Source: Ruegeria marina
GTDB lineage: Bacteria; Pseudomonadota; Alphaproteobacteria; Rhodobacterales; Rhodobacteraceae
Length of the DNA: 64,000 bases
Direction of reading: 5' to 3'
Assembly: GCF_900101475.1 (NCBI RefSeq)
Contig: NZ_FMZV01000002.1
Location: forward strand, 124,001-188,000
Below the pieces are notes generated by a model. It searched no databases, was not told where the DNA came from, and saw only the letters and a program-made list of their open reading frames with translations. The translations under genes and the position numbers were made by a program. Positions 52,574 to 57,401 of the stretch are shown in pieces. Position 1 is the stretch's first letter, and each line of letters opens with the position of its first letter.

Positions 52574-54847
<2,274 letters not shown>

Positions 54848-54889: not shown

Positions 54890-55279
54890 ATGAAGGGACA
54901 TTGCCATTGTGGCGCCGTGCGCTGGGAAAGCGACGGCGCCATTGCCTGGACCTGCTATTGCCATTGCACCGATTGCAGGCGCAACTGCGCATCGCCGGTC
55001 ACCGCGTTTTTCGGCCTGCCGCATGACTCGGTGCGCTGGCAGGGCGACGCGCCGCGGATCTACACCTCGTCCGAGGGGGTGGAGCGGCTTTTCTGCGGCA
55101 CCTGCGGCACCCAGATGGCTTATCGCAATGCGCGGGACACGGTGAACATCCACCTGTACACGGCAACGCTGGAGGACCCGGCCAGCCTGCCGCCCCGGTT
55201 CCATGTCTTTCATGCCGACCATCTGCCGTGGCTCAACATTCAGGACAGCCTGCCCCGTTATGCCGGGACATCCGGCTAG
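54890..55279 (+). CDS. GFA/CENP-V family zinc protein
   Basis: A 129-residue protein of the glutathione-dependent formaldehyde-activating (GFA) family. Zinc ligands are in GHCHCGAVRW, CYCHCTDCRR and FCGTCGTQM, seven to eight cysteines in all. Many relatives have no proven activity on formaldehyde. It has GGGAGG upstream and lies 42 bp after maeB, so it could share its transcript. Downstream is the TTTGCA array of prpE. Confidence 0.88.
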   Translation: MKGHCHCGAVRWESDGAIAWTCYCHCTDCRRNCASPVTAFFGLPHDSVRWQGDAPRIYTSSEGVERLFCGTCGTQMAYRNARDTVNIHLYTATLEDPASLPPRFHVFHADHLPWLNIQDSLPRYAGTSG

Positions 55280-55300
55280 AAACGGAGCCCGCCGCGCCCG

Positions 55301-55416
55301 AAATTTGCATTGCGGATATTTGCAGTTTTGCAAAGATCGCAAACTTTTCCCCATGAAGGCGGCACGAAGGGTGTTTTGCAAAAATTTGCAGAGCATGATC
55401 CGCCAAAGCTGCAAAG
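55301..55416 (+). promoter_or_regulatory. Cluster of TTTGCA/TGCAAA sites, probable PccR/ScfR-type operator of prpE
   Basis: Within 116 bp there are TTTGCA or TGCAAA hexamers at 55304, 55319, 55327/55329 (full TTTGCAAA), 55375/55377 (full TTTGCAAA), 55385 and 55410, plus CGCAAA near 55338. Neighbouring copies are mostly 8-15 bp apart, and TTTTGCAAAAATTTGCA at 55374-55390 is a close double site. PccR, the short-chain acyl-CoA regulator of propionyl-CoA genes in Rhodobacter sphaeroides, is known to recognise paired TTTGCAAA. The target prpE fits. Confidence 0.68.
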
Positions 55417-55511
55417 TTCTTGCGGTAATCTGACGCGACGTCCACCCGGTGGCTTGCCCGGTGGCGCGGCTGCGCCTAACACACGTGCCAGCCGAACGCG
55501 AGGAGGATGCC

Positions 55512-57401
55512 ATGGCATATCAGGACATATACGAGAGCTGGAAGAGCGATCCCGAAGCCTTCTGGCTGGAGGCCGCAAAGGCCATAGACTGGGTCGAGGC
55601 GCCCAAGCGCGCGCTGGATGACAGCAACGCGCCGCTCTACGAATGGTTCACCGACGCCCGGGTGAACACCTGCTGGAACGCGGTCGATCGCCATGTCGAA
55701 TCCGGCCGGGGCGAGCAGATCGCGATCATCTACGACAGCCCGATCACCCAGACCAAGCGGCAGATCTCGTATGTCGAGCTGCGCAACCGCGTGGCCATGC
55801 TGGCGGGTGCGTTGCGCGCCAAGGGCGTCGAAAAGGGCGACCGCGTCATCATCTACATGCCGATGATCCCCGAGGCGCTGGAAGCAATGCTGGCCTGCGC
55901 CCGGCTGGGGGCAATCCATTCGGTGGTGTTCGGCGGATTTGCCGCCAACGAACTGGCGGTGCGTATCGACGACGCCAAGCCCAAGGCGATCATCGCCGCC
56001 TCCTGCGGGCTGGAGCCGGGCCGCGTGGTGCATTACAAGCCCCTCCTCGACGGCGCCATCGACATGGCCAAGCACAAACCCGAGTTCTGCGTGATCTTCC
56101 AGCGCGAGCAGGAAGTCGCCAAACTGGTCGAGGGCCGCGATTATAACTGGCACGGGTTCCAGTATGGTGTCGAACCGGCCGAATGCGTTCCGGTCGAAGG
56201 CAACCACCCGGCCTATATCCTCTACACCTCCGGCACCACCGGCGCGCCCAAGGGCGTAGTGCGCCCCACCGCGGGCCATCTGGTGGCGCTGAACTGGACG
56301 ATGAAGAACATCTACAACGTCGATCCGGGCGATGTGTTCTGGGCGGCCTCGGACGTGGGCTGGGTCGTGGGGCATTCCTATATCTGTTATGGCCCGCTGA
56401 TCCACGGCAACACGACCATCGTGTTCGAAGGCAAGCCCGTGGGCACCCCAGACGCCGGCACCTTCTGGCGGGTCATTTCCGAGCACAAGGTCAAGAGCTT
56501 CTTCACCGCGCCCACCGCGATCCGCGCCGTCAAGCGCGAGGATCCAAAGGGAGAGATGCTGGCGAATTACGACCTGAGCTGCCTCAAGGCGCTGTACCTC
56601 GCGGGCGAACGCGCCGATCCCGACACCATCGTCTGGGCGCAGAAGGCGTTGGGCGTGCCGGTCATCGACCACTGGTGGCAGACCGAGACCGGCTGGACCA
56701 TCGCCGGCAACCCGCTGGGGATAGAGGAACTGCCGACCAAGCTGGGCTCGCCCGCCAAGCCGATGCCGGGCTATGACGTGCAGATCCTCGACGAGGGCGG
56801 CAATCCGCTGCCCGCAGGCGAGTTGGGGGCCATCGCGGTCAAGCTGCCGCTGCCGCCGGGCACCCTGCCGACGCTCTGGAACGCCGAGGCGCGGTTCAGG
56901 AAATCCTACCTGGAGCATTTCCCCGGCTATTACGAGACCGGCGATGCCGGGATGATCGACGAGGACGGCTATCTCTATATCATGGCCCGCACCGATGACG
57001 TGATCAACGTCGCTGGCCACCGCCTGTCGACCGGCGGCATGGAAGAGGTTCTGGCCAGCCACGAGGACGTGGCCGAATGCGCCGTCATCGGGGTGAGCGA
57101 CGATCTCAAGGGCCAGATGCCGCTGGGTTTCCTCTGCCTCAACAAGGGCTGCAACCGCGACCATGCCGACGTGGTCAAGGAAGTGGTCAGGCTGGTGCGC
57201 GACAAGATCGGCCCGGTGGCCGCGTTCAAGCTGGCGGTCGTGGTCGACCGCCTGCCCAAGACCCGGTCAGGCAAGATCCTGCGCGGCACCATGGTCTCGA
57301 TCGCTGACGGCAAGGACTACAAGATGCCCGCCACCATCGACGATCCGGCGATCCTGGACGAGATCCGGGCGGCGCTGCAAACGCTGGGCTACGCGAAGTG
57401 A
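55512..57401 (+). CDS. prpE: Propionyl-CoA synthetase
   Basis: A 629-residue AMP-forming acyl-CoA synthetase that activates propionate. The N terminus (YQDIYESWKSDPEAFWLEAAKAIDW) is the ACAS_N domain. ATP signatures are ILYTSGTTGAPKGVVRPTAGH and the core DHWWQTETGWTIAGNPLG, typical of PrpE rather than Acs. The catalytic and acetylatable Lys is in KTRSGKILRGTM near residue 596. AGGAGG lies five bases before the ATG. An array of TTTGCA sites upstream suggests control by a propionyl-CoA responsive regulator. Confidence 0.94.
   Translation: MAYQDIYESWKSDPEAFWLEAAKAIDWVEAPKRALDDSNAPLYEWFTDARVNTCWNAVDRHVESGRGEQIAIIYDSPITQTKRQISYVELRNRVAMLAGALRAKGVEKGDRVIIYMPMIPEALEAMLACARLGAIHSVVFGGFAANELAVRIDDAKPKAIIAASCGLEPGRVVHYKPLLDGAIDMAKHKPEFCVIFQREQEVAKLVEGRDYNWHGFQYGVEPAECVPVEGNHPAYILYTSGTTGAPKGVVRPTAGHLVALNWTMKNIYNVDPGDVFWAASDVGWVVGHSYICYGPLIHGNTTIVFEGKPVGTPDAGTFWRVISEHKVKSFFTAPTAIRAVKREDPKGEMLANYDLSCLKALYLAGERADPDTIVWAQKALGVPVIDHWWQTETGWTIAGNPLGIEELPTKLGSPAKPMPGYDVQILDEGGNPLPAGELGAIAVKLPLPPGTLPTLWNAEARFRKSYLEHFPGYYETGDAGMIDEDGYLYIMARTDDVINVAGHRLSTGGMEEVLASHEDVAECAVIGVSDDLKGQMPLGFLCLNKGCNRDHADVVKEVVRLVRDKIGPVAAFKLAVVVDRLPKTRSGKILRGTMVSIADGKDYKMPATIDDPAILDEIRAALQTLGYAK

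Follow-up and report, generated by a model that had tools for sequence, protein, structure and literature searches.

What is the function of the dense cluster of TTTGCA hexamers upstream of prpE, and which regulator would recognise it? In the window (the whole 64-kb stretch of DNA analysed here), we found TTTGCA at 55304, 55319, 55327, 55375 and 55385 on the forward strand and at 55329, 55377 and 55410 on the reverse strand, eight matches in total. These amount to six TTTGCA-type boxes (A, B, C, E, F and G) that extend over 112 bp at 55304-55415, because the two TTTGCAAA sequences at 55327-55334 and 55375-55382 are each their own reverse complement. The first-pass annotation had counted at least six TTTGCA/TGCAAA hexamers, two full palindromes among them, which we confirm. 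It had also rightly remarked that there are more copies than in a two-site operator: six boxes in two modules depart from the canonical ScfR operator, which consists of exactly two boxes or a single double one. Dinucleotide shuffling of 55296-55430 gave 0.90 matches on average and 7 at most, and none of the 5000 shuffles reached the 8 found in the native sequence. Across the whole window, the hexamer is not overrepresented (29 matches versus 23.9 expected). The array neighbours a gene for a GFA-domain protein (54890-55279), and a malic enzyme fused to a phosphotransacetylase-like domain is encoded at 52574-54847.

We compared the geometry of the boxes in 221 distinct prpE upstream sequences, 74 of which hold the exact C..E pair, and in 65 promoters chosen separately by E..G alone. 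Boxes C (55327-55334) and E (55375-55382), both perfect TTTGCAAA palindromes without strand, are separated in the 74 promoters by 47 (2 cases), 48 (28), 49 (39), 50 (2), 58 (2) or 59 bp (1), which places 67 of them at 48-49 bp; the step to 58-59 bp, with three cases only, corresponds to about one helical turn (~10 bp) more. Likewise, 64 of the 65 promoters chosen by E..G have a box like C (no more than one mismatch) located 47-50 or 57-60 bp upstream of E, and in the same set an exact TTTGCAAA was absent elsewhere between 9 and 140 bp upstream of E save once, at 70 bp. The promoter-proximal partner of E, box G (GCTGCAAA, 55408-55415, also strandless), starts 33 bp after E in the window and 32-33 bp after it in 61 of the 65 promoters (34 or 35 bp when measured from the start of E to the TGCAAA start of G, again in 61/65). 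Box F (TTTGCA, 55385-55390, forward strand) follows E by 10 bp, about one helical turn, and is exact at this position in 46 of the 65. Conservation is weaker for the two remaining boxes, both on the forward strand: B (TTTGCA, 55319-55324) lies 8 bp before C, where TTTGC[AG] is found in 21 of the 74 promoters, and the outermost box A (TTTGCA, 55304-55309) has its counterpart in 22 TTTGCA matches located 70-72 bp before E among the 65. Columns outside the boxes mostly carry little information in the 74 promoters.

The array had been described as lying directly before prpE. It is indeed upstream of this gene, but the wording is slightly loose, as 96 bp separate the end of the last box from the prpE ATG (55512), a gap that contains a predicted core promoter. 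The putative -35 (TTGCCC, 55454-55459) and putative -10 (TAACAC, 55477-55482, 17 bp after the -35 hexamer) of this promoter, both on the forward strand, would set the transcription start near 55489 and place G, E and C at about -78, -110 and -158, respectively. In 42 of the 65 promoters, the distance from the TGCAAA start of G to the start of a CTTG is exactly 43 bp, and where the E-G distance is 34 and not 35, the CTTG mostly shifts with G. The complete CTTGNN-N16-18-TANNNY arrangement was found in 17/65 promoters, whereas 200 shuffles gave 0.56 on average and never more than 4. An earlier suggestion of two overlapping promoters was not supported, since we observed only one conserved -35/-10-like pair, located downstream of the array. 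Directly after box G, a TTGCGATAATCTGAC-like stretch (55416-55435) is kept in many close relatives and matches none of the assigned promoter elements or boxes. A second promoter overlapping G at this stretch was considered and rejected: by eye there is no -35 located 17 bp before it in the profile of the 74 promoters, and the stretch is not universally kept.

In the 149 genomes of the family, the exact wide pair (two TTTGCAAA with 36-56 bases between) occurs at 65 places in 60 genomes. Forty-nine of these places fall within the 400 bp that precede prpE, and in 44 of the 49 the spacing is 48 or 49; the other 16 are found elsewhere. In the genome that harbours the array (G000; 4,991,917 bases), a pair of TTTGCAAA separated by 36-66 bases (44-74 bp from start to start) occurs once, at the prpE array, and the reversed control gave 0. 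Single boxes are common, with 31 genome matches of TTTTGCAAA and 11 in the reversed control. The strict pair TTTGCAAA-N20-29-TGCAAA has two sites in this genome and none in the reversed control: E..G before prpE, and C29:98382-98419, which ends 8 bases before the ATG of the ScfR gene pccR. No short-spaced TTTGCAAA-N0-30-TTTGCAAA pair was present in the genome, and the pair shared by the two genes consists of one full and one shortened box. The pccB promoter of the same genome holds degenerate boxes only (TTTGCA and TGCAAA, 34 bp apart), outside the strict pattern.

Twelve genomes were searched for the strict pair, five of the genus and seven of the family, the latter chosen as close and having the wide pair. 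With strands merged, they contain 33 sites, 27 of which are located at three genes: 11 at prpE (a count that is partly due to choice, because the seven genomes from outside the genus were picked for the wide pair, which does not affect the two other counts), 10 at pccR and 6 at pccB, the remaining 6 being elsewhere. The pccB and pccR sites were identified by tblastn or coordinates and the prpE positions were checked too; the six other sites were judged by open frames only. A single genome of the twelve (G141) is without a strict-pair site, its wide pair being present and the E..G match absent. The distance between the two boxes, start to start, is 32 bp at the six pccB sites of the relatives and 30 bp at pccR. 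We also observed near-identical TTTGCAAA-N22-(T/C)TGCAAA-type sites at G001:C1:4037, G001:C1:296553 and G002:C42:4043 (L323, L340 and L324, respectively), with no long open frames around them; the two G001 sites face opposite directions.

The first-pass annotation had called for a search for the PccR/ScfR gene, and the genome does hold such a gene, about 80 kb from the array and near a pccB-like gene. The case that it had named as a refutation, a genome devoid of ScfR-family regulators, does not apply. A PF09856 profile search returned three matches in G000, the best of which, above the cut-off, is a 466-residue protein (L004:8428-9828) composed of an HTH_3 domain, an IrrE-like domain and an ScfR C-terminus. 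Upstream of its gene, a PccB-like carboxyltransferase is encoded on the opposite strand, the two being separated by a Bcr/CflA-like MFS gene, and a biotin carboxylase/carrier protein is encoded further along. The nearest solved relative is M. tuberculosis PrpR (MtPrpR), which passages of PMC6765138 describe as a tetramer in which C-X2-C-X4-C and Cys363 coordinate a 4Fe-4S cluster and Phe155 sets ligand choice, R. sphaeroides PccR having Trp at this position. Our protein has Trp144 at the place of MtPrpR Phe155 (hand count on the alignment) and CRICERKTC at 431, and the Cys363 cysteine is kept; the Trp and C-X2-C-X4-C were also present in 29/29 further orthologs looked at. By its sequence, the protein is of the PccR type. 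At the Phe155 place, the alignment shows Glu and Gly in the two remaining ScfR proteins. The gene of the second one (G000:C35:38344-39762, L005:10344-11762) adjoins genes resembling those for 2-methylfumaryl-CoA isomerase, malate--CoA ligase beta, a CitE-like lyase and the aminotransferase BhcA, and its product possibly controls a different route of CoA-ester or glyoxylate metabolism. The third, diverged gene (G000:C14:135263-136561, L006:9263-10561) adjoins a large histidine-kinase-like frame.

The presumed target gene (55512-57401, forward strand) encodes a prpE-like acyl-CoA synthetase whose best NCBIfam match is propionate--CoA ligase. With 740 and 707 bits against the two propionate--CoA ligase models, it does not reach their curated equivalog cut-offs (955 and 827 bits, respectively), so propionate is a likely but not a certain substrate.

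The presence of an array was compared with that of a PccR ortholog in the 139 of 149 family genomes with usable prpE upstream DNA, 10 being left out with prpE unlisted or cut at its start. We defined an array as at least three hexamers in the 300 bp upstream of prpE, and a PccR ortholog as at least 50% identity, fragments included (G032 and G061, with no listed identity, were judged by E-value). Arrays were found in 57 of the 117 genomes with a PccR ortholog versus 1 of the 22 without (Fisher p 7.7e-5, shared ancestry ignored). Hexamer counts per upstream region are mostly 0-1 or 4-9, and only 2 of the 57 array genomes have exactly three, the threshold. The one exception, G032, has five hexamers and no detected PccR ortholog in a genome that is 86% complete; among the 22 genomes without an ortholog, 8 have only a more distant ScfR (E 1e-30 or better), G032 and G061 included. 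The array is also present in R. capsulatus SP108 (L034). The link between PccR and the array is nonetheless not general, because 60 of the 117 PccR genomes have a prpE with fewer than three hexamers, mostly none. The possibility that prpE is part of an operon in array-less genomes was tested by upstream open frames; the test is uninformative because chance frames are long in GC-rich genomes, and 27 of 56 genomes with the array came out as operonic, too. Altogether, the PccR-type gene, the same pair at pccR and, in relatives, at pccB, and the co-occurrence of array and PccR support well, in silico, the assignment to PccR/ScfR made from the window alone.

Considering all the above results, we propose, with a probability of roughly 0.72, that the array serves PccR as an expanded operator from which this regulator activates the downstream prpE. 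Boxes E/F and G would constitute a PccR pair, like those at pccB and pccR, held at a fixed distance from one sigma-70-type core promoter, and A, B and C would represent a second module 48-49 bp further up. PccR bound to propionyl-CoA would probably occupy each module as a multimer and stimulate prpE, the distal module adding cooperative binding through a second multimer at a fixed distance. Since PrpE makes the inducer, the proposed activation would amount to positive feedback at prpE, which PccB, as the consumer of the inducer, would balance. At its own gene, PccR probably acts as a repressor, because one box of the pccR promoter stands between the -35 and the -10. At pccB, the proximal box is located near -56 by our reading of the promoter, upstream of the -35, which is consistent with activation; G at prpE, near -78, would be further upstream, which is a point against the proposal. 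Passages of PMC10370305 describe PccR as activating and report that R. capsulatus SB1003 grew less well on propionate once pccR had been deleted.

The same protein might instead bind the array and mainly repress prpE, with the modules looping or coating the DNA to limit propionyl-CoA formation when propionyl-CoA is high or prior to induction. We consider this unlikely, even though repression appears to be within the range of PccR. Indeed, TTTGCAAA was found in the pccR promoters of all 30 best-matching PccR orthologs, and in 19 of these 30 it is nested between TTGNNN (-35) and TANNNY (-10), compared to 0.02 with shuffled flanks. Moreover, a rigid spacing that tolerates ~10 bp more would fit loop or cooperative repression, and propionyl-CoA accumulation is toxic in M. 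tuberculosis according to passages of PMC6765138. At prpE, however, all boxes are upstream of the conserved -35/-10-like pair, the usual position of an activator, and the distance from G to the -35 is fixed.

We give still less credit to the hypothesis that a different ScfR paralog (MccR- or RamB-like) or another regulator uses the array. The genome does encode the two further ScfR proteins, and ScfR relatives recognise similar boxes: passages of PMC6765138 report TTTGCAAA and TTTGCgAA for MtPrpR, and TTTGC(A/G)AA mapped to MtRamB sites. On the other hand, the second ScfR is without the Trp and clusters with the 2-methylfumaryl-CoA isomerase-like and BhcA-like genes, no second ScfR was detected at E 1e-30 in 46 of the 57 array genomes with PccR, one of the genomes (G056) has a single PF09856 match, and pccR and pccB are marked by the same pair. 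Finally, a functionless AT-rich intergenic patch with many TTTGCA by chance or composition is very unlikely. With 46% GC the region is indeed rather rich in AT, but the shuffles never reached its hexamer count, the same geometry recurs before prpE in the 49 cases from the 149 family genomes, and the spacers carry little information.

Returning to activation by PccR, the cooperative or looped binding that had been suggested for the array would fit the fixed C..E spacing. A point against the proposed operator is that C and E are about 4.6 turns from each other, so that the two modules would not share one face of the helix. A more specific version, which we put forward only tentatively and regard as somewhat doubtful, is a phase-locked two-module ScfR operator, in which two PccR multimers, kept at a distance of 48-49 bp or at one longer by about a helical turn, form a loop or a higher-order complex. 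This would confer switch-like positive feedback on prpE, with pccB and the self-repressing pccR having only simple pairs. The assembly of ScfR tetramers on DNA is represented by a schematic model only in passages of PMC6765138, and promoters with rigid spacing and helical-turn steps may serve as natural variants to study it. More broadly, the predicted PccR regulon would gain the propionate-activating enzyme in many genera of the family, placing one regulator over both the maker (PrpE) and the consumer (PccB) of its own inducer.

Carter and Alber are said to have described, in 2015, a PccR operator with paired TTTGCAAA-type boxes at pccB of Rhodobacter (Cereibacter) sphaeroides. That operator has in common with the array a PccR ortholog, propionyl-CoA genes and, reportedly, paired TTTGCAAA-type boxes, and the pair spacing at pccB of the relatives nearly equals the E..G spacing. 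Unlike that operator, the array has prpE as its target, six boxes in two modules and not one pair, and a second module at a fixed 48-49 bp. Among the papers listed by a literature search covering few subscription journals, none was seen to place prpE under PccR, and in PMC6023979 PccR appears in the reference list only. Two other operators are comparable. According to passages of PMC6765138, the MtPrpR operator of M. tuberculosis also combines adjacent TTTGCAAA and near-TTTGCAAA palindromes, a tetrameric ScfR regulator and propionate metabolism, but there the two palindromes are 1 bp apart and form a single 17 bp double site, whereas the array has doubles at 8 bp (B-C) and 10 bp (E-F) start to start, a third site and long fixed spacers. 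Similarly, the RamB operator of Paracoccus denitrificans, as described in passages of PMC10370305, has two near-identical ScfR boxes upstream of an activated operon; it differs from the six-box array by its 18 bp spacer, its position 82 bp upstream of the gene and its role in the glyoxylate cycle. In our sequence tests, the array thus resembles the known PccR/ScfR operator and differs from it in target and size.
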